From assembly GCF_036345015.1 (NCBI RefSeq), contig NZ_CP084098.1, forward strand, positions 1,501,326 through 1,565,325: a DNA stretch of 64,000 nt, in the 5' to 3' direction. How positions within the stretch are numbered: the stretch's first letter is position 1; the number at the start of each line of letters is the position of its first letter. The notes below the pieces were generated by a model. That model made no database searches, had not been told where the DNA came from, and saw only the letters and a list, made by a program, of their open reading frames with translations. Made by a program: the position numbers and the translations under genes. Below are positions 45,132 through 56,133 of this stretch, piece after piece. This DNA is from Cyanobacterium sp. Dongsha4. Its GTDB lineage: Bacteria > Cyanobacteriota > Cyanobacteriia > Cyanobacteriales > Cyanobacteriaceae.

Positions 45132-45150
45132 AGATAAGTGTCAATTAGCT

Positions 45151-45224
45151 GGGTGTGTAGCTTAGTGGATTAGAGCGGCTGACTACGGATCAGCAGGTCG
45201 GGGGTTCGAGTCCCTCCACGCCCG
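45151..45224 (+). tRNA. tRNA-Arg (anticodon ACG)
   Basis: This 74-nt gene folds as a complete cloverleaf. The acceptor stem GGGTGTG pairs with CACGCCC, the discriminator is G, and the anticodon stem GCTGA/TCAGC encloses CTACGGA (anticodon ACG). The T-arm has GGGGG/CCCTC around TTCGAGT. A34 is the substrate of TadA, which is encoded at 17823-18296. The 3' CCA is not encoded. The gene is intact and lies 45 bp from the end of the CAST, whose homing it appears to have guided. Confidence 0.96.
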
Positions 45225-45269
45225 TACATGAAATAAATTCTGAGTAACTCACACGTTAACAAACTTGTT

Positions 45270-45358
45270 TATACAGTAACAAATTATTTGTCATCGGTAA
45301 CAGATTAATGTCGTCTTAACAAATTAAATGACGTGATCACAAGTTAGTGTCGTTTAAT
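45270..45358 (-). repeat. CAST end next to tRNA (cas12k side) with TnsB-type binding repeats
   Basis: The end begins TATACAGTAACAAATT, one base off the usual TGTACAGT. It carries four spaced copies of an (A)ACAAATTA-TGTCGT-type motif at about 45277, 45298, 45318 and 45338. The third copy (AACAAATTAAATGACGT) is identical to one at the other end of the element. The layout matches the ends I recall for characterised V-K transposons. Confidence 0.8.
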
Positions 45359-45376
45359 TGGGAGCGGAGAGACTTG
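45359..45376 (-). CRISPR. 18-nt homing spacer of the V-K guide
   Basis: On the minus strand, CAAGTCTCTCCGCTCCCA follows GAAAG directly. It has the form of a tRNA 3' end (loop residues CAAGT, a CTCTC T-stem, a CGCTCCC acceptor strand and discriminator A). Aligned with tRNA-Arg from 45207, 13 of the first 17 positions match. Confidence 0.7.
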
Positions 45377-45608
45377 CTTTCAATTCTCAAAGAGAATTCT
45401 TCCTCGATCGGAAGTGATTAGCTAACCGCTATAGCAGTACACCTGCACCCTTATTGTGGGGAGTGCGCCTAGTTTCTCTATCTTTAGATGGACAGCATCA
45501 GGGCAAGTGGTTAGCAGGAGCAGAAAGCAAACTTCTTAGAAGATGTAAACCACTCCTCATTTTTCACAGAACAGAGGTTGACAACAACTTGATCTGCGGC
45601 ACGATTTC
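45359..45608 (-). ncRNA. V-K tracrRNA naturally fused to a crRNA-like tail (single guide RNA)
   Basis: The region behind cas12k resembles the known V-K tracrRNA over about 230 nt. Shared segments in order on the minus strand are TTTGCTTTCTG, CCCTGATGCTGTC, CAATAAGGG, GTGTACTGCTATAGCGGTTA and CCGATCGAGGAAG. It then enters a perfect hairpin, AATTCTC-TTT-GAGAATT (45382-45398), followed by GAAAG (45377-45381) and the 18-nt spacer. Anti-repeat and repeat are thus joined in one transcript with no array and no separate repeat. The 5' end is approximate. Expression cannot be seen from sequence. Confidence 0.8.
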
Positions 45609-47202
45609 CCTCATTGTAACTTAAGAATTTGTCTTTGTGGGATTATTTTGGCGATTATTTTTCTGGGTACTCAATGCTAACTGTAATGCCTTATCGGTAA
45701 ACTTTCCCTGTTTGGGTTGTTTGCCTTCCTCTACGACAATACCCAATTTAGAAGAAATTGCTTTGATATTATTAATCAATCTACCATAACTCCATTGATG
45801 CACCTGTACACGATAATCCTGTGCATATTTTCGTTGCCCTTCCTTATATTCTGGGATTCTCTCCTCTGCCCTTGCTTGTATTTCTGCCTCAGTAATCGAT
45901 CGCATCTCTTTGAGTCGAGGAATGATAATAGTCGAAACTTGGTATTCTTTAGCTATTTGGAGAATGGATTTAGCAATGAGGCGATCGAGGTATTCACCCA
46001 GATTAGATTCCCCTTTTTGCTGAAAATTAGCTCTTTTCCTTGCTTTATGGTTTTGGCGATTCAACTTCTGTTTCTCATTTCGTCTTCTCCTGATGAGATG
46101 GTAATTATCTCCCAATAATTGCTTGATATTACGATAGAGAATAACTTTATTCGTGGTGACATCCACAAGTGCAATGGTAACTGGTTCTTGTAAACCCATT
46201 GCTACTCCAAGAAAAAAATTAGGATTACCTTGATAAAGAAGATATAGTTTATTTTTGTGCCAAGGCTCACCTTTTCCATCATCTTCTTTCCAAATAATCA
46301 TAGCCGAACGCAAGGTAAATAAAGCACTTGAAAACTGATCTTTACTGGCTTTTTTCAATTCCTGATCCTCATAAAAACGCCAGAAATAAGGAAGTTGACG
46401 AGAATCACAATAGATTTGAAAAATATGGTCACTCAAACCACTAAATTTAATACAAATACGGTTTTGATCATTCAAACACCATTTTAAATCCTCATTGGTT
46501 TCATAAACGATAGGATAAGGAATTGACGGAGAATTTCGTTTCAATGCCGAAAACCAACTATCACTCTCACTTTGATCTACTGGCATCGTGTTAGAAGCAA
46601 GGATGAGAGTGTGCAACCATTTTTCTCCCTCTAAATCTCTGCCAGAAGGAATAGACATCTCAATCTGTCTTTTCAATCTCTGAATTTTGATCTCCAATTT
46701 CCGTTTTATCTTTTGATATTTTTCTTTTGTCTCAAGCCTATTTTTAGGAACGCTACAACCATTCTTAATTAAATAAACGATCGCATCCCTCATTTGACAA
46801 TCTTCTGTTTTTTCATATTTTTGAAATAAATAATTAGCAATACCCTCTTGAGTAGAAGTCGTTTCAATATTATCGAGAATCTGTTGAGCCTGATTTTGCA
46901 GTGCTTCCATTGAACCATCAAAGGATTCTATTAATAAACTATCGGGTTTCAACATTTCTAACCAACGGCTATTTCCTTCTAATTGCATTTTGTAACTCTT
47001 TTGCACTTTGAACCAAGATTTATAGATGTAGTCAATGATTTTACCGACAGAAGCATAAAACCGAGATGGTTGTCCTTGAAAACGAGAATCATTTTTTAGC
47101 TCTTGAATTTGTTGGGCAATAAAGTTTTTCGGCAGTCTTCCCTTCTCTCGTCATTGAAGAAAATCGGGATGATGTTTAATTCGGGTAAGGATTTCATTGA
47201 TC

Positions 47203-47208
47203 AAAGGA
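47203..47208 (+). repeat. IS982 target duplication, left copy (AAAGGA)
   Basis: AAAGGA directly precedes the left terminal repeat of the IS. The matching copy is at 48173-48178. Confidence 0.85.
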
Positions 47209-48172
47209 ACCTCAGTTTTGGATAAGAAAACAGGCAGATAGTAAGCTGAATATAACAAACCATCAACTAACTACTGCCCTATGTTTAATTTAGATTATTT
47301 ATTTTGTCATGTCGATGATTTCTGCCAACAATTTGAGCCTCAATGGCAACAAAAACTTATCTCTCATGGTGCTGTCCAACGTGTTCGTACTAAAAGTCTC
47401 TGTTTAAGTGAAATTATGACTATTCTCATTGCTTTTCACCAAAATCATTACCGTAATTTCAAACATTTTTATCTTAATCACGTTCAACAATATTGGACTT
47501 CTGCTTTTCCCAAACTTCCCAGTTATCAACGTTTTGTCCAATGGATTCCATCAACGATTATTCCCTTGTGTGTTTACCTCAAGCACTGTTTTGGTAACTG
47601 TACCGGAATTAGTTTTATTGATTCTACTAAGATCCAAGTTTGTCATAATCGCCGTATTCGCCAACATAAAGTATTTAAAAATTTAGCTCAAAGAGGCAAA
47701 ACCTCTGTGGATTGGTTTTTTGGTTTTAAACTCCATCTGGTAGTCAATGAACTGGGGGAAATTGTGAATATGAGTTTAACCCCAGGTAATGTCGATGACC
47801 GTAAACCTGTAGTCGATCTTTTAAAAGAGCTTTGGGGAAAAGTTTTTGGTGATAGAGGTTATGTCTCACAAAAATTAGCCACAAAGCTACTGAAAGATTT
47901 TGGTATTGAGTTTTTTGCTAAACCCAGACGCAATATGAAGAACAAATTAATGAGACTTCATGACAAACTTTTATCTCGGAAACGAGCGATTGTCGAAACA
48001 ATCAATGATCAGCTCAAAAACATATCACAAATAGAACATTCTCGTCATCGTTCACCAATAAATTTCTGTGTCAATATATTATGTGGGTTAATCGCATATT
48101 GTCATCAACCAAAAAAGCCCCACCTTTCCTTAGAATGGATTTTACCTCAATCTGCTTAACCAAAACTCAGGT
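47209..48172 (+). mobile_element. IS982-family insertion sequence (964 bp) inside cas12k
   Basis: The element is bounded by terminal inverted repeats: left ACCTCAGTTTTGGATAAG, right (inward) ACCTGAGTTTTGGTTAAG, 16 of 18 matching. It is flanked by AAAGGA duplications. The size and the single intact transposase fit the IS982 family. Related ends form the MITE at 27066-27242. Confidence 0.92.
47281..48159 (+). CDS. IS982-family DDE transposase
   Basis: Transposase of 292 residues, full length for the family. The catalytic triad appears intact: Asp114 (SFIDSTKIQVC), Asp191 (VFGDRGYVSQKL) and Glu239 (RAIVETINDQLK). The HKVFKNLAQRGKTSVDWFFG and TPGNVDDRKP stretches are typical of IS982. The element is probably still active, which contrasts with the decayed CAST around it. 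Confidence 0.93.
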   Translation: MFNLDYLFCHVDDFCQQFEPQWQQKLISHGAVQRVRTKSLCLSEIMTILIAFHQNHYRNFKHFYLNHVQQYWTSAFPKLPSYQRFVQWIPSTIIPLCVYLKHCFGNCTGISFIDSTKIQVCHNRRIRQHKVFKNLAQRGKTSVDWFFGFKLHLVVNELGEIVNMSLTPGNVDDRKPVVDLLKELWGKVFGDRGYVSQKLATKLLKDFGIEFFAKPRRNMKNKLMRLHDKLLSRKRAIVETINDQLKNISQIEHSRHRSPINFCVNILCGLIAYCHQPKKPHLSLEWILPQSA

Positions 48173-48297
48173 AAAGGAGTATTTTTCTTGCTCATCAACA
48201 ACCAGAGAGATTGACGAGTATCAGCAGAAGCGATTAAACGAGATTGAATAGTTACCTGAACCATCGCTTTACATAATTGTTTAATTGGACATATTTG

Positions 48298-48303
48298 TAT
48301 AAT
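48298..48303 (+). promoter_or_regulatory. Candidate -10 element of the cvkR-cargo operon
   Basis: TATAAT lies in the 58-bp gap between cas12k (minus) and cvkR (plus). No well-spaced -35 is visible. A divergent promoter for cas12k must lie in the same gap, the natural place for a CvkR operator. Confidence 0.4.
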
Positions 48304-48322
48304 AGCAGATCATTTTATAATT

Positions 48323-48775
48323 GTGGGTATGAAACAGGAACTATTTTTTAGTAGCAAAGATATATCAAAGATTACGGGTTGTTCTCTCCGACAATTGCAG
48401 TATTGGAGGGATAAGGAGATTATTGTGCCTTTGATTATGGCGACGGGTACGGGAAAGACGATCTACTATTCTTTTGTGGAGTTGGTAGAGGTGTCGGTAA
48501 TGGTATATATGCTGTCTGTTGGTTTGAATTTAGAGATGGTACAAAAAATCATCAATGATTTGAGGGAAAAAGAACCATCATTTACCGATGCGGACTTTAA
48601 GAAGCGTTTTATGGTAATTGCTCATGATGGTACTGTTGAGTTATTGCCTTATCAACGGGAAGATGCGATCGCACTTCTGGAAGAGGGGAAGGCGATCGTG
48701 CCTTTGTGGATTGATGAAATTCATCAAACTTTAAAGGGCAGTGATACTATTAAGCAAATAAAGGAGAAAAATTAA
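48323..48775 (+). CDS. cvkR: MerR-type regulator CvkR (Cas V-K repressor)
   Basis: Protein of 150 residues with an N-terminal MerR-like winged helix (DISKITGCSLRQLQYWRDKE, about residues 13-32) and a C-terminal part without metal-binding cysteines. Its place, divergent from cas12k with a 58-bp shared spacer, matches CvkR, the repressor of V-K transposon genes described in Anabaena. An ATG at 48329 or a GTG at 48323 could be the start; the ATG has the more usual form. Its stop is one base before the nuclease-methyltransferase ATG, so regulator and restriction genes are co-translated or at least co-transcribed. Confidence 0.82.
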   Translation: MGMKQELFFSSKDISKITGCSLRQLQYWRDKEIIVPLIMATGTGKTIYYSFVELVEVSVMVYMLSVGLNLEMVQKIINDLREKEPSFTDADFKKRFMVIAHDGTVELLPYQREDAIALLEEGKAIVPLWIDEIHQTLKGSDTIKQIKEKN

Positions 48776-48776
48776 C

Positions 48777-50732
48777 ATGAGTAATGAAGATATATTACTA
48801 ATACCATCAGGAAAGTTGAGATGTGTTGTTTCTGGCAAACTTCGCAAAGATACTCCTGAAGAAAATGTTAGACAAAGAATAGCTCGTAGTTTGTTGGATA
48901 ATTATGCTTATGATAAAGCTGATATGGAAATTGAATTTACCATTAATCAAGGCTCTAAAAAACCCAGAGTAGATGTTGCTATTTTTCCTCCTAATACAGA
49001 ACATAAACAGGAAAATATTAAAATAATTGTTGAATGTAAAAGAGAAGAAATTAAGCCAACTGATAAAGATAATGGTGTTGAACAACTAAAATCTTATATT
49101 TCTGCTTGTTTAAATGCTAAATATGGGATGTGGGTTGGCTCAGAATTACAAGTCTGGGAAAAAATTACTGATAAAAACCAATATAAGTTGGAAACTGCGA
49201 CAGATATTCCTCGTTTTGGTTTAGAAGCACCTCAACCTTTAACTTTTGCCGAACTTGTCCCCGCTCAAGACGAATTAATTGATGTTTTTAAACGTTGTCA
49301 TAATTACATTTATGGTAATCAAGGTTTTCAAAAAGAACAAGCATTTCAAGAGTTGTTAAAAATAATTTTTTGCAAAGTTTATGATGAAGATACAGCTATT
49401 GATACCATGAGATTTTTCATTGGTAATCAGGAAAGAAGATCGGAAATTGGTCAACGTCAATTAAAGCAGACTATAGAGAAGATTTTTGAAGAAGTAAAAA
49501 CTCGTTATCCTTATATTTTTGATAAAGAAGAATCTATCCGTTTAGAAAATCGAGTATTGGCTTATTTAGTTGGTGAAATGCAAAGATTTTCTTTTTTATT
49601 AACGGAAGCAGATGTTAAAGGAACAGCTTATGAACAGCTAGTGGGTTCTAATTTACGGGGTGATCGAGGTGAATTTTTTACGCCTCGTAACGTTTGTGAA
49701 ATGGCATCGAAAATGGCTTTATTGACATATCCACGAAAACAATGGCTTAAATTAAAAATAATCGATCCCACTTGCGGTACAGGTGGTTTTTTAGTCGCAA
49801 CAATGAATGTTTTAAGAGAAGTTATTAGGGAGCAACAAATCAAAAAATGGCGTAAAAATGAAAATAAAGCTGAAGAAGAAACGATCAGAATTTTAAAAGA
49901 AACAGCTAATGCTAATTTACTAGGTATAGATTTTAATCCTATTTTAGTTAGAGCCGCTCAAATGAATTTAGTTATGCACGGCGATGGTTCAACTAATATT
50001 TTTCATGCAAATTCTTTGTTACCACCAGGGGAATGGTCATCAACACCTCCTAATGATGTAGCTAATTATGTTAAACCCAATAGTTTTGATGTTATTGTTA
50101 CTAATCCTCCCTTTGGTTCTAATATTGCCGTCGATGATTCTCATATTTTGGCTCAATTTGAAATCGCTCGTTTATCGACAACAGGAAATCAAGCTAGTGG
50201 TTTACCCCCAGAGCAACTTTTTATTGAACGATGTTTATATTTACTTAAACCCAGTGGAAGATTAGCTATTGTTTTACCTGATAGCATTTTGTCTAATCCA
50301 GGATTGGCTAATTTACGGCGTTGGATTTTGAAAAAAGCTCGTATTATTGCCAGTGTTGATTTACCTGCGGTAACTTTTGAACCTTATACAGGTACTCAAA
50401 CAAGTGTGTTGTTGCTTCAGAAAAAAACAGAAGCGGAAATGCAATTAGAAGACAAGTCAGGGCAACCATTAGATTATGAAATTTTTATGACTATGCCTGA
50501 AGCAGTGGGACACGATCGCCGAGGAAATGTTCATTATCTACGAACTCCTCAAGGTGAATTAATTGAATATGAGGAAGAATACTCGGTATCTCGACGTACA
50601 GCAGATGGAGAGCAAGTCGTAGAACATCGCCGACAAAGAAAAAGGCTTGTTCATGATGACTTACCTGAAGTTGTCAAATATTTCGAGCAATGGTTACAAG
50701 AAAATAATCGTATGGAGTGGTTAAATGACTAA
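48777..50732 (+). CDS. BcgI-like fused restriction nuclease and N6-adenine methyltransferase
   Basis: Protein of 651 residues. The N-terminal nuclease domain is of the HsdR_N type (PD-(D/E)xK with Asp66, Glu86 and Lys88: RVDVAIF then IVECKREE). The C-terminal Type I-like methyltransferase has IDPTCGTGGFL (about residue 330) and TNPPFGS (about 441), preceded by GEFFTPRNV. A separate specificity subunit follows, overlapping by 8 bp. This subunit plan resembles BcgI and other Type IIB/IIG enzymes, which cut on both sides of a bipartite site. It has no helicase motor. The recognition site is unknown. Confidence 0.8.
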   Translation: MSNEDILLIPSGKLRCVVSGKLRKDTPEENVRQRIARSLLDNYAYDKADMEIEFTINQGSKKPRVDVAIFPPNTEHKQENIKIIVECKREEIKPTDKDNGVEQLKSYISACLNAKYGMWVGSELQVWEKITDKNQYKLETATDIPRFGLEAPQPLTFAELVPAQDELIDVFKRCHNYIYGNQGFQKEQAFQELLKIIFCKVYDEDTAIDTMRFFIGNQERRSEIGQRQLKQTIEKIFEEVKTRYPYIFDKEESIRLENRVLAYLVGEMQRFSFLLTEADVKGTAYEQLVGSNLRGDRGEFFTPRNVCEMASKMALLTYPRKQWLKLKIIDPTCGTGGFLVATMNVLREVIREQQIKKWRKNENKAEEETIRILKETANANLLGIDFNPILVRAAQMNLVMHGDGSTNIFHANSLLPPGEWSSTPPNDVANYVKPNSFDVIVTNPPFGSNIAVDDSHILAQFEIARLSTTGNQASGLPPEQLFIERCLYLLKPSGRLAIVLPDSILSNPGLANLRRWILKKARIIASVDLPAVTFEPYTGTQTSVLLLQKKTEAEMQLEDKSGQPLDYEIFMTMPEAVGHDRRGNVHYLRTPQGELIEYEEEYSVSRRTADGEQVVEHRRQRKRLVHDDLPEVVKYFEQWLQENNRMEWLND

Positions 50733-52245
50733 GTTAAAACAACAAAGTTTGGAAAATTCTGTTCCTACGACTCGTCATGAGTTATGGGAAAAATTGTTAG
50801 CACAAGATTATATTGCTCCTCCTCTTATAACTTCGGTTTCTGCTAATTGGTTATATGAAGGGGATTATCGTTTAGATGGCTGTTTCTATGGCAGTAATGC
50901 TCAAACTGCGAAAAGAATTGTCACTGAAAGTATTTATCCAGTGGAAACTTTAGGAGATATTACTCAAGATATTTTTTTTCCTGGTCGTTATAAAAGAATT
51001 TATGCTAGAGATAAACAAGCAGGTTATCCCTTTTTGAGTGCTTCCGAAGCTCTACAATTCCGTCCAACTAGCGATCGTTATCTTGCTAAAGATCATCTTC
51101 CCAGTAATTCTGAAAAACATTTCATCGAAAAAGATTGGATTTTGATGACTCGTTCAGGTACTGTGGGAAGAGGTGTAATTTCAACTAAAAGACTGGCAAA
51201 ATATTTTATTAGTGATGATTTAATTCGCATTATCCCGAAAAAGTTTCCTTTAGTGGGCTATCTTTATGCTTTTCTGAGTTCTTGGATTGGACAGGCGTTA
51301 GTAACAAAAGATCAATATGGTTCAGCTATAAAACATTTAGAATCCCATCATATTGCTAGTGTACCAGTTCCGATTCTTCCTGAATCTGAGCAAGAGCTTA
51401 TTCATAATGAAATTCTCCATGTTTATCAGTTACGGGAAAAAGCTAATCAATTATTAGATGAAGCTAATGAGTTGTTGCATCAAGAGTTAGGTTTACCTTA
51501 TTTTGATGAAAGTTTAGTTCCTTACTTACCTCAACCCCCATATCACCCCTCTCATCGCCCGAAAATGCTCCCTGTAAAATCATTTACGACTAAACTATCA
51601 GAATTAGGCGATCGCTTTGATTGTTCTTTTCATGTACCAGTAGCAAAAACGGCAATTGAATTATTACATAAAGCTAAGTATCCAGTTACTTTATTGGAAA
51701 ATTTAGCAGAAGACATTTTTATACCTCCACGATTTAAACGTATCTATGTAACTAAAAAATATGGTGTTCCTTTTTTACAAGGTTCTCATTTGGCACAGAT
51801 TAGACCATATGATCTTCAATATCTATCTGAACAAGCAAATAAAAACCATATTGAACAATGTTTAATAAAATCAGGTTATTTGCTCATAACTCGCTCAGGT
51901 ACGATTGGGCGTGTGATGCTAGTAACATCATTTCACAATAACTGGGGTGCTTCTGAACATTTATTAAGAGTTGTAGCAAATTCTGATAAAACCTATTGCG
52001 GTTATTTAACAGCATTTATGATGACACCTTACGGACAAAATCAATTAACAGCAAAAATTTATGGTGCAGTGGTTGATGAATTAACAGAAGATGATACTAA
52101 AAATATTTTTATTCCTGAACCCCCATTAGATATTCAAAAAGAAATAGGAGACAAGGTAGTTAAAGCATTTGAATATAAAGAACAAGCAAATTTATTAGAG
52201 GAACAAACAATCAATAAATTAGAGAAAATATTAGAACAAGATTAA
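50725..52245 (+). CDS. HsdS-like specificity subunit with two target-recognition domains
   Basis: Protein of 506 residues with two similar halves, each a target-recognition domain. Compare DIFFPGRYKRIYARDKQAGY (first half) with DIFIPPRFKRIYVTKKYGVP (second half), each followed by a helical spacer (REKANQLLDEANELL; YKEQANLLEEQTINK). This is the plan of Type I and BcgI-type S subunits and gives a bipartite DNA site. It overlaps the nuclease-methyltransferase gene. Whether the two halves read the same half-site cannot be told. Confidence 0.83.
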   Translation: MTKLKQQSLENSVPTTRHELWEKLLAQDYIAPPLITSVSANWLYEGDYRLDGCFYGSNAQTAKRIVTESIYPVETLGDITQDIFFPGRYKRIYARDKQAGYPFLSASEALQFRPTSDRYLAKDHLPSNSEKHFIEKDWILMTRSGTVGRGVISTKRLAKYFISDDLIRIIPKKFPLVGYLYAFLSSWIGQALVTKDQYGSAIKHLESHHIASVPVPILPESEQELIHNEILHVYQLREKANQLLDEANELLHQELGLPYFDESLVPYLPQPPYHPSHRPKMLPVKSFTTKLSELGDRFDCSFHVPVAKTAIELLHKAKYPVTLLENLAEDIFIPPRFKRIYVTKKYGVPFLQGSHLAQIRPYDLQYLSEQANKNHIEQCLIKSGYLLITRSGTIGRVMLVTSFHNNWGASEHLLRVVANSDKTYCGYLTAFMMTPYGQNQLTAKIYGAVVDELTEDDTKNIFIPEPPLDIQKEIGDKVVKAFEYKEQANLLEEQTINKLEKILEQD

Positions 52246-52281
52246 AGGGCTATTTAAAAATTTTATGTTCAGAAAAAAATT

Positions 52282-53739
52282 ATGGATTTCAATCAATTGT
52301 CAATTTTAATTCAACAACTTATTGCACTGCCAAAGGAAACTGAATGGGTAGAATTTAAGTATAATAATGAAAATCCAGAAACTATTGGTGAGTATATTTC
52401 TGCGTTATCAAATTCGGCTACTTTACATAATCAAAATACAGCATATCTTGTGTGGGGAATCAAAGATGATAGTCATGAAATAATAGGAACTAAATTCAAA
52501 CCTAAACAAGCAAAAAAAGGAAGTGAAGAATTAGAAAATTGGTTATTAAGAAACCTATCTCCAAGAGTAAATTTTAAAATTTATGAATTTATTTTTCAAG
52601 ATAAAAACTTAGTTTTATTTGAAATTCCTTGTGCTAATAATCAACCAGTAAGTTTCCACGATATAGAATATATTAGAGTTGGCAGTTATAAAAAGAAACT
52701 CAAAGAGTACCCTGAAAAGGAAAAAGAATTATGGAATTTATTTTCATTTCAAACTTTTGAAAAAAGAATAGCCTTAGAAAATATAACAGCAGATGAAGTT
52801 TTAGCAAAAATTAATTATCCGAGTTATTTTGAGTTAACTGAACAAAATCTTCCTGACAATAAACAGGGTATTTTACAACGTTTAGCTGATGAAAAATTAA
52901 TCAATATTAAACCTAGTAATTATTTCGATATAACCAATTTTGGAGCAATTCTCTTTGCTAAAAAATTAAGTGATTTTGATAGGTTAAGTAGAAAAGCAAT
53001 GAGAGTTATTATTTATAAAGATAAAAGTCGAATTTATACTCAAAGAGAAAAATTATTTGATAAAGGATATGCTGTTAGTTATGAAGAAATTATCAATTTT
53101 ATTAATGATCAATTACCAGAAAATGAAGAAATTGGTCAAGCATTAAGACAAAATATAAAAATGTATCCTGAAATTGCCATTAGAGAATTAGTTGCTAATG
53201 CTATGATTCATCAGGATTTTAATATGACAGGTGTAAGCTCTACTGTAGAAATATTTTCTGACAGAATAGAAATTAGAAATCCAGGTGAACCATTAGTTGA
53301 TACGATGCGGTTTATTGATACCCCTCCTCAATCTCGTAATGAAGATTTAGCCGCATTTATGAGAAGGATTCATATTTGTGAAGAGCGTGGTAGTGGTATT
53401 GATAAAGTAATCGATGCCGTTGAGTTTTGCCAATTACCAGCCCCTGAGTTTAACGTTAATAATCAACATACAGAAGCTATTTTGTTTTCTTATCGAGAAT
53501 TGAAAGATATGGATAAGAGCGATCGTATTAGAGCTTGTTACCAACACGCTTGTTTACGTTTCGTTTGTAGAGAACAAATGACCAATGAATCTCTGCGAAA
53601 AAGATTTGCTATTGAAGATAAAAATTATTCTATGGCTTCCCGAATTATTTCCGATACAATTGAAGAAGGATTAATCAAGCCTTATGATCCTGAAAATAAA
53701 TCAAAGAAACACGCCAAATATATACCCTGTTGGGCTTAA
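52282..53739 (+). CDS. AlbA_2/Schlafen-type DNA-binding protein with HATPase_c_4 and winged-helix C terminus
   Basis: Protein of 485 residues with an N-terminal AlbA_2 domain (ETEWVEFKYNNENPETIGEY, about 19-38), an HATPase_c_4 region (IRELVANAMIHQDFNMTG, about 295-312) and a C-terminal winged-helix segment. Proteins of this class are often annotated as RecG-related or transcriptional regulators and are common in mobile and defence regions. Here it is the last cargo gene, 36 bp after the specificity subunit. Its role is uncertain: regulator or defence accessory. Confidence 0.75.
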   Translation: MDFNQLSILIQQLIALPKETEWVEFKYNNENPETIGEYISALSNSATLHNQNTAYLVWGIKDDSHEIIGTKFKPKQAKKGSEELENWLLRNLSPRVNFKIYEFIFQDKNLVLFEIPCANNQPVSFHDIEYIRVGSYKKKLKEYPEKEKELWNLFSFQTFEKRIALENITADEVLAKINYPSYFELTEQNLPDNKQGILQRLADEKLINIKPSNYFDITNFGAILFAKKLSDFDRLSRKAMRVIIYKDKSRIYTQREKLFDKGYAVSYEEIINFINDQLPENEEIGQALRQNIKMYPEIAIRELVANAMIHQDFNMTGVSSTVEIFSDRIEIRNPGEPLVDTMRFIDTPPQSRNEDLAAFMRRIHICEERGSGIDKVIDAVEFCQLPAPEFNVNNQHTEAILFSYRELKDMDKSDRIRACYQHACLRFVCREQMTNESLRKRFAIEDKNYSMASRIISDTIEEGLIKPYDPENKSKKHAKYIPCWA

Positions 53740-53912
53740 AAACCGATTTGAGATTAAATATTAAAAAAACTGTAAGTGTTTATAAAAAAAGTTTATGTGA
53801 TGGTTATGTGATTGACAAACAAAATTGAGTGGTAAAAAAATATGCTTCGATGGCTCTAAATAATAGTAAATAAGGGAATTGAAAATTTTTAGTTAAATGG
53901 GGTTTATGTGAT

Positions 53913-54438
53913 TTAACCTTCAATTTTATTTTTTATTACCTTTCTACTCATCTCCGCAAAAGGAGTAAAACATCTATGACACCAACCATCAACCCATAAA
54001 GCAGGAAACTTAAACCTTGCCCCACAATTGGGACATTCTGATAAAAGTTTCAGTTGATGTCGATCGCACTTGTAAATCTCCTTATACTGCCATTCCATCT
54101 TATGATAGGGCTTTTCCCCATAACAAGCAGAACAAATACGAATAGGAGTCATTTTCATAGGGGCGGAAGGAAACATTGTTTGTAAGGTTTCTACTTCTAC
54201 TTGTACGATCGCACTTAATTTTTCCAACTGTTCAGGGGAAGGAGGAGGATTAAAACGGAATTTTTCCCAACGGGCGGGAGCGCAAGCGCTGCTGCAAGCA
54301 GTAAGCATTAGATAAACCTGTTACCTTGCCCAAAGCAGAAGGAGTAAGCTCATTTTCTCGTCTAAACCGCCCTAAGAAATGACTAATGCTCTCCCCCTCA
54401 TAAGGTGCAATCGTAAACCACCAAGGTTGAATTTCCAT
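53913..54438 (-). pseudogene. tniQ: TniQ, frameshifted by a 25-bp palindromic insertion
   Basis: TniQ links the Cas12k target complex to TnsC filaments. The first part (IAPYEGESISHFLGRFRREN) and second part (ARWEKFRFNPPPSP, CSACYGEKPYHKMEWQYK, CPNCGARFKFPALW) match V-K TniQ of about 167 residues, including its paired CxxC motifs. They lie in different frames. Between them, about 54275-54299 on the plus strand, sit two adjacent palindromes (AGCGCAAGCGCT and CTGCTTGCAGCAG) that account for a 25-nt excess over the family length. The gene overlaps tnsC by one base. Confidence 0.88.
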
Positions 54439-55169
54439 TACTTATACTCCTGTACAACTTCTTTTAAAGTGTCATAATCAATCTTGTTAAGTCCTTTCTT
54501 GAGGGAACGAATTGCCGCCTCACGCAAAACCATATCCATAATGCCGATATAGCCGCTCGTTGCCTCCCCAATTAGCTTCAACATTTTTTTATTTGTTAAG
54601 TTAGAAGCTACAGGTAACTTCAACACCTGCTTTTCCCAAATATTCACAGTACGAACAAAATCTTCCCCTGACAACTTTCCAAAACGATAACAAGCACGAA
54701 AACGATTATATACCTGCTCATCCTTCTTCATAACTGCATCCAAACGATCTGTTCCTACAAGTACAATAGCGATATTAAGATGATCAAAAATATCCCGAAT
54801 TTCCGCAAAAGTCTTTGGTTTACAGCGATCCGCTTCATCTAAAATAATCATCTCCACACCGCATCTTTGCAATACTGTCATGGTTCTTTTTCTGATTTCT
54901 GACACCGTACCCTTCGTCATTTGATACTTTAAGTGTTCAATGATTGCTTGAAACAAATCCTTTGCTCCACACTCTTGAGGGACTTGCACGTAAATCACAG
55001 GTACTTGAGGCGGTTTTCCAACTTCTTGCTTTGGTTTATGTCTTAAACGATAAGAATTACAGGCGATGGTTTTTCCTGTACGAGATTCTCCCACAATCCG
55101 ACAAGATTGCTTTGATTGACGTTTACTTTCAAGCCATTCATGGAGAGTGGCAACTTGTTCTAAACTCAC
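54438..55169 (-). pseudogene. tnsC: TnsC (AAA+ regulator), 5'-truncated
   Basis: This AAA+ ATPase forms the filament that links target complex and transposase. The visible frame starts at a GTG (SLEQVATLHEWLESKRQSKQ) and keeps Walker A (GESRTGKT), Walker B (MIILDEADR) and the sensor region (VLVGTDRLDAV) through to VVQEYK. Compared with the usual V-K TnsC (about 275 residues) some 30 N-terminal residues are missing, because a deletion joined it to the middle of tnsB. The frame continues upstream as RLERKTV, which matches TnsC, and then enters tnsB. The core ATPase may fold but would lack its normal start. Confidence 0.88.
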
Positions 55170-55190
55170 TACAGTTTTACGTTCTAGTCT

Positions 55191-55961
55191 TTAATTAGAA
55201 CTGTAACTTTTAAGCAAAATGGCATGACGTAAAGCAAGAGCAACCACTTGAGAACTGGGAGCATCAAAACCAAGATTGATTCCCATAATACAGCGAGAAT
55301 AAGTATCTATAACTGTAGTTAGCCAAGGTCTGCCTAATAATTGACCAAATTGATCTACCAAAAGAATATCAGCACGAGTATGGTTACATTGCCAGACATG
55401 GTTGCTATATTGCACATCGATTTCAGTTCCTGAACGAGTAGAAACTACCAATTGAGAACCCCTCCAACCAGAACTTCTAATTCTTTTCTTATTTTCTTTT
55501 TCGGCGATAATCGGATTGAGAATACGATACACCGTCATGTGAGAAGGAGGTTTGATCCCCCAATTTTCAGCTTGGGCAACTGCTCGTAAATAAACCTGTT
55601 TAGGAGTCATTCATTTACTACCTTTATTTCCTTCACGATAGGTTTTAAGAATGAAATCTTGTAAGCGAGGATCGATACGATAAGAGCCTTTATCGGCTCG
55701 ATTATTTTGAAGAATACCGAGTAAACCATTTTCTTCCCATTGCTTAACGTATCTTTGGATAGTTCTAACTGACTTATTCAATTGAGTTGATGCTTGTTTC
55801 AACTTTTCGACCTAGGTTTTCTTGTCGCAGGGTTGAAGTAAATCTTCAATGACATTAGCGATTTTTTGTTCTTCGGGAGAAAGTTGAGAGATCAATTCTG
55901 GAGAATCAGAAAATTGATCATCGATAGTCATAGTATTGTTGTTAATGTTCAATAAAATCAT
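55191..55961 (-). pseudogene. tnsB: TnsB transposase, truncated with two nonsense codons
   Basis: TnsB is the DDE transposase that binds the ends and joins them to target DNA. Only about the first 250 of 580 residues remain. A TAG at 55812-55814 replaces a Tyr and a TGA at 55611-55613 replaces an Arg. The text ends at SYSSN before a stop fused to tnsC sequence. The first catalytic Asp, in WQCDHT of active relatives, is Asn here (WQCNHTRADILL), and the other two acidic residues are deleted. It cannot be catalytic. Confidence 0.9.
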
Positions 55962-56133
55962 AATGGTTTTGTACTAATTTTAGGACATTTAATTTGTTAA
56001 TTTTATTTTAGGTGCGATCGCCCCTTGTTTTAGGGGAAGAATTAGTTATAATTATTGATATGCAAAGATTTGAAGAGTCTTATTTTTAGATGACACTAAT
56101 TTGTTATAACGTCATTTAATTTGTTACTGTACA
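55962..56133 (-). repeat. CAST end next to tnsB (canonical TGTACAGT end)
   Basis: Read inward (minus strand) the end starts TGTACAGTAACAAATTAA and has a second repeat (ATAACAAATTAGTGTCATC) and a third further in (TTAACAAATTAAATGTCC, about 55972-55990). These repeats match those at the tRNA-proximal end. Confidence 0.85.

Follow-up and report, generated by a model that had tools for sequence, protein, structure and literature searches.

A putative natural single-guide RNA with a dedicated tracrRNA copy in a subgroup of type V-K CRISPR-associated transposons

Introduction

Ordinary type V-K CRISPR-associated transposons (CASTs) encode Cas12k, TnsB, TnsC, TniQ and a MerR regulator, carry a 17-nt anchor spacer directed at a tRNA gene with a GTN PAM, and begin 46 to 82 nt from that PAM (PMC9938897). 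The anchor spacer and its truncated repeat stand apart from the CRISPR array and are served by the one tracrRNA (PMC9938897; PMC11406308; PMC11656645), and CAST variants with a delocalised crRNA only and no array have been mentioned (PMC11656645). The elements described here share the components of ordinary V-K CASTs; in the latter the separate truncated repeat pairs in trans with the sole tracrRNA, but these elements have a second tracrRNA that continues in cis into the repeat through a re-evolved hairpin.

Single RNAs that combine scaffold and guide are familiar from other systems. The omega RNAs of TnpB and IscB carry both in one molecule encoded beside the transposon end; those are nuclease systems whose guide derives from the flank outside the element, whereas V-K elements use the inactivated Cas12k as effector and encode the guide within the element itself. 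Engineered Cas12k single guides join the anti-repeat by a short loop to a truncated repeat, and the fused guides reported here differ from them in being natural, in having loops that range from 3 nt to over 25 nt, and in having arms that do not come from the present array repeat. Type I-F3 CASTs achieve guide privacy through atypical repeats. They too keep the homing guide apart from the array guides (PMC11406308), but they have no tracrRNA, whereas privacy in the V-K elements would come from a covalently joined tracrRNA copy. The long-form tracrRNA found in Streptococcus type II-A systems forms a single guide by itself, according to the passage of PMC8730458 that cites Workman et al. 2021; as described in that passage it makes Cas9 a repressor of its own operon, whereas the V-K RNA is a separate paralogue predicted to act as a homing guide with Cas12k. 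No description of a natural or fused V-K tracrRNA-crRNA was found in the literature searched, a body of work that did not include the main V-K surveys, so that an earlier mention is possible and the novelty is provisional.

Results

A broken V-K element beside a tRNA-Arg gene

The window analysed is a 64-kb stretch of the Cyanobacterium sp. Dongsha4 genome, and the element in it spans positions 45270-56133. Its Cas12k, tnsB/tnsC/tniQ, tracrRNA and anchor spacer identify it as a type V-K CAST, with a CRISPR array and a target-site duplication absent. The tnsB, tnsC and tniQ homologues are all present in that order, and no tnsA was seen among the open reading frames. The parts outside the guide RNA are as follows.

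45150..45225, plus strand: tRNA-Arg(ACG), the attachment site (tRNA search)
45204..45206, plus strand: GTT PAM (sequence)
45207..45223, plus strand: anchor protospacer at the 3' end of the tRNA gene (spacer match)
45270..45360, minus strand: tRNA-proximal transposon end, with repeats of type GACGACATTAATCTGTTACCGATGACAAATAATTTGTTACTGTATA (sequence)
45621..47240, minus strand: C-terminal remnant of cas12k, without the residues equivalent to ~371-436 (~66 residues) (NF038191, 580 bits)
47281..48159, plus strand: transposase (DDE_Tnp_1_3) of an insertion sequence that splits cas12k
48172..48276, minus strand: cas12k N-terminal fragment on the far side of the insertion sequence
48323..48775, plus strand: MerR-type regulator at the cvkR position (position as in PMC9938897)
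53913..54438, minus strand: tniQ, frameshifted
54441..55190, minus strand: tnsC, joined to what remains of tnsB and missing its first 25 residues
55194..55961, minus strand: tnsB remnant, N-terminal 229-256 residues only, with an in-frame stop
56110..56133, minus strand: other transposon end, beginning TGTACAGTAACAAATTA (sequence)

The remnant scores 580 bits against a cut-off of 150 bits for NF038191 though the gene is broken. Judged by its reading frames the element is dead and unable to move, with cas12k, tnsB and tniQ all broken. Its cargo, between 48777 and 53739, is a restriction-modification-like pair of type I (HSDR_N/N6_Mtase with Methylase_S) and one protein of the Schlafen/AlbA_2 kind. 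Two further cas12k fragments, relics of V-K elements, lie in the same genome (G000:C1; 3578456-3578992 and 17451-17780), near tRNA-Met and tRNA-Tyr/Thr.

The spacer and the adjacent tRNA-Arg(ACG) gene agree at 13 of 17 positions, and position 2 is among the mismatches. The first-pass annotation had a transposon end following the guide, and the element ends at 45270, 63 nt from the PAM, inside both the published interval and the V-K range measured in this analysis. No 5-bp target-site duplication is visible at the element, whose flanks differ. In a genome of the same genus (G014) the sequences flanking 45270 and 56133 are found at 3.08 and 3.49 Mb, ~408 kb apart. Because the flanks are not neighbours there and the duplication is absent, the element probably joins two loci, either as a composite of two insertions or through rearrangement.

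A tracrRNA joined to its anchor crRNA

The guide RNA gene lies downstream of cas12k on the same strand and comprises the following parts.

45613..45618, minus strand: -10-like box TACAAT, candidate promoter of a canonical-tracrRNA-type leader (sequence; likeness of the leader to that of locus L054)
45360..45604, minus strand: putative natural single-guide RNA, predicted transcript of ~245 nt (sequence, tracrRNA profile, covariance model and fold; start and end inferred)
45398..45602, minus strand: tracrRNA core, starting with GTGCCG at 45602; canonical in origin in its 5' part and derived from a single guide in its 3' part
45382..45398, minus strand: fused anti-repeat/repeat hairpin AATTCTC-TTT-GAGAATT (sequence, shuffles, RNAalifold)
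45377..45381, minus strand: GAAAG, the 3' end of the truncated repeat (sequence)
45360..45376, minus strand: 17-nt anchor (homing) spacer CAAGTCTCTCCGCTCCC (13/17 match to the 3' end of tRNA-Arg, GTT PAM)

The first-pass annotation had proposed that a tracrRNA runs through a 7-bp stem and a 3-nt loop into GAAAG and an 18-nt spacer. The join holds: a complete tracrRNA core leads without a break into the repeat (45602-45377) and then the spacer, with arm AATTCTC at 45398-45392, loop TTT at 45391-45389 and arm GAGAATT at 45388-45382, all on the minus strand. The spacer is better read as 17 nt long, the V-K anchor length, than as 18. A 7-bp stem with a 3-nt loop followed by GAAAG occurs once in the window compared with a mean of 0.03 in shuffled sequences, a difference on which a chance hairpin was rejected. 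The predicted fold of the RNA includes the hairpin (z = -3.0).

At its gathering thresholds Rfam returned only the tRNA and no match to a V-K tracrRNA, and V-K tracrRNA was therefore modelled in this analysis. A covariance search, which the earlier annotation had suggested, matched the window guide (97 bits, E 4e-17), as did a tracrRNA profile; the window was among the training sequences of both, so these scores measure fit and not independent discovery. The core has CCCCACAA at the site where other single guides have CAGCAA, and by its sequence the guide with its tracrRNA core is decaying. A second fused guide, badly decayed, lies at position 3080566 of the same genome.

Fused guides in related elements

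Relatives were collected by whole-genome Cas12k searches and the tracrRNA covariance model, yielding ~160 distinct tracrRNA 3' ends. A contig scan with the broken Cas12k of the window gave no match, and an alignment of intact relatives succeeded; likewise, fused copies escaped a strict regular expression written for the tracrRNA 3' end, and a profile HMM with the covariance model was used instead. Plasmids held no single guide resembling that of the window and only two distant cas12k genes.

The joined hairpin, for which a scan of other V-K elements had been suggested, was recovered as 25 fused guides in 21 genomes. A further 102 tracrRNA ends possess a separate anchor of the usual kind, and the script left 37 unclassified, a set to which both ends (fused and canonical) of L056 and L221 belong, as does the fused end of L234. 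Sampling was non-random, and these counts are not frequencies. In 22 of the 25 the spacer matches a GTN-flanked site beside the element at 13-17 of 17 positions, and this site nearly always lies in a tRNA gene (tRNAs for Arg, Leu, Asp, Asn, Ser, Val, Tyr, Thr and Phe are included). For the other three (L056, L221, L234) the fused hairpin was the sole ground of acceptance. The distance from PAM to element end is 46-63 nt in 10 of the 11 fused elements measured, within the general V-K spread.

The single guide had initially been read as a replacement for the array. Instead, 12 related elements keep it as a second tracrRNA gene, usually together with an array. A first survey yielded eight elements with two tracrRNA cores, and in each of them the anchor repeat immediately follows the second core; four more were added afterwards; the fused RNA stands downstream of the ordinary tracrRNA. 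Array repeats were recognisable by an exact-repeat scan in nine of the 12, and in one further element, L056, an insertion sequence interrupts the array. That insertion, at ~3200-4090 of L056, lies within the array of the G001b element and has array repeat halves on both sides. In two-copy elements the first anti-repeat matches the array repeat (AATCCC with GGGATT, for instance), and the second, which differs from it, matches its own truncated repeat. Most second copies in the window's family have their own TATAAT box, and outside that family a promoter is not obvious.

Six fused-guide loci (L224, L226, L230, L231, L234, L264) have no cas12k within 3 kb upstream in the sequence fetched, and for L236 and L239 the upstream sequence is too short to judge. 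Most of the six guides adjoin a matching tRNA gene; L230 and L231 are broken. Fuller copies occur in genomes G001 and G009. Loci of this kind may be decayed, or they may be non-autonomous elements served in trans. At L225 (872-1992) the fused guide is seemingly split between anti-repeat and repeat by an insertion.

Covariation and proposed privacy of the fused hairpin

Among 19 distinct hairpins the native pairing of the two arms averages -5.5 kcal/mol, and none of 2000 permutations was as good; RNAalifold predicts the fused hairpin unaided. In these comparisons the anti-repeat/repeat hairpin of the natural single guides is both conserved and co-varying. In two-copy elements the mean pairing energy of the fused repeat is -5.2 kcal/mol with its own anti-repeat and -2.0 kcal/mol with the canonical one. 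Because the fused repeat pairs so poorly with the ordinary tracrRNA, the homing guide would be private. In the Pleurocapsales lineage, several of the hairpins (L106, L222, L226, L228) are imperfect or pair weakly.

These values bear on a simpler reading, that tracrRNA and anchor crRNA are merely adjacent in the genome and are processed to two RNAs, with a functionless join. Ordinary V-K elements do have their truncated repeat and 17-nt spacer as a separate unit (102 elements here; PMC9938897). However, repeat and tracrRNA in elements with a separate anchor pair in trans at a mean of -11.3 kcal/mol, against about -5.5 kcal/mol in the much weaker fused stems, and canonical tracrRNA with a fused repeat reaches only about -2; a weak stem would be tolerable in cis and not in trans. 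Many of the fused loops are only 3-6 nt and their stems 6-8 bp, shorter than expected for RNase III. Together with the retention of a whole tracrRNA copy for one spacer in at least two lineages, this makes mere adjacency improbable in our judgement.

Phylogeny of the guides and of Cas12k

Within the window's family the fused and canonical copies fall into separate groups (support 100/99 and 97/93), as they do in a Xenococcus/Prochloraceae pair (100/99 and 99/97). Since separate supported groups are formed in two lineages, the fused copy has been retained through speciation. In the Cas12k tree the carriers form three groups (each 100/100) inside one 99/96 group; the Cas12k of L106 is frameshifted. 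On this topology a single origin of the fused guides is possible, with weak node support of 50/26, and two to three origins would also be compatible. The tracrRNA tree unites the fused copies of one lineage with the canonical copies of that lineage, a clustering that could reflect separate duplications or gene conversion.

Origin of the array-less guide in the window

A separate repeat-spacer array belonging to the window element would have spoken against a lone single guide, and one was sought across the genome. There is none in the element or the 64-kb window, and the rest of the genome held no canonical tracrRNA and no close match to the array of a relative; an array elsewhere in the genome was rejected on these searches.

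The leader of the window guide is identical to the canonical leader of its closest relative, L054, at 75 of 77 positions and to the leader of the fused L054 copy at 47 of 77. Its body agrees with the fused copy of that relative at 160/168 positions and with the canonical copy at 116/170, and the change of origin falls around the conserved GAAAAATGAGG. A sister element in genome G001 (L055) has the same structure, with 77/77 for the leader and 162/168 for the body. As the leader is of canonical type and the body of fused type, with the same pattern in G001, the window guide is a chimera in which recombination between two tracrRNA copies deleted the array. The missing array, taken at first for the original design, is by this comparison a secondary loss.

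A rival reading takes the joined RNA for a decay product, an accidental fusion of tracrRNA to the last truncated repeat by array deletion; in its favour, the window element is dead and array-less and its RNA is itself a deletion chimera. We consider this very unlikely. Deletion accounts for the absent array but not for the fusion; the joined RNA stands beside an ordinary tracrRNA in the 12 related elements, on which ground a deletion scar was rejected as the source of the fusion, and its sequence is conserved and its hairpins are re-paired. Nor are two-copy elements likely to be assembly artefacts across independent genomes. The array-less G001 element (L055/L178), with the single guide only, has intact TnsB, TnsC, TniQ and Cas12k, and another element (L058/L179) has intact proteins with both an array and a single guide.

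The G001 element (L178, ~10920) and L056 have identical TnsB, TnsC and Cas12k and apparently swapped flanks: TGGGG lies 5' of the far end in one and 3' of the tRNA-proximal end in the other. This suggests recombination between copies with a large inversion.

Discussion

The fusion, the paralogous tracrRNA copies, the chimera, the targets, PAM and spacing, the covariation and the gene damage are read directly from the sequences. They make it highly probable, in our view, that a subgroup of V-K elements possesses a natural single guide for RNA-guided homing, formed by a second tracrRNA joined to the anchor crRNA. The natural single guide suggested by the first-pass annotation thus gains 25 instances, co-varying hairpins, tRNA targets and PAM spacing, and its role shifts from that of a substitute for the array to that of a companion normally found beside the ordinary tracrRNA. 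With somewhat less assurance, we think it reasonably probable that this V-K subgroup is monophyletic or nearly so and has a dedicated tracrRNA-homing-crRNA gene uncoupled from the array guides, some members being single-guide-only.

The mechanism we propose starts from a duplication of the tracrRNA gene, after which a short hairpin would have connected the second copy to a truncated repeat and a 17-nt anchor spacer. We infer that the fused guide is transcribed as one RNA, loaded into Cas12k and active in homing. Cas12k with the fused RNA would bind the 3' end of a tRNA gene at a GTT PAM, and TniQ, TnsC and TnsB would insert the element ~46-63 bp further on. Complete relatives keep an ordinary tracrRNA alongside, usually with an array, which would serve other targets. 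In the window, recombination between the tracrRNA copies has removed the ordinary tracrRNA body and the array, leaving one chimeric guide under the canonical promoter, and with the element inactivated as well this remaining guide is decaying.

A chiefly regulatory role for the fused RNA, comparable to that of the long tracrRNA which makes Cas9 a repressor, in place of a homing role is the least probable reading and a remote one: type II-A natural single guides act as regulators according to the passage cited in PMC8730458 and a MerR regulator is present in the element, but 22 of the 25 guides match a GTN-PAM protospacer beside the element, nearly always in a tRNA gene, and the element ends lie at V-K spacing in the fused elements measured.

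A homing guide with its own tracrRNA would be a natural answer to how one Cas12k separates two classes of guide, and it would parallel the single RNAs of TnpB and IscB. The choice of pathway in V-K elements would become testable by swapping or deleting one RNA gene. The fused guides, with loops from 3 nt upwards, may also provide ready-made compact single guides for Cas12k tools.
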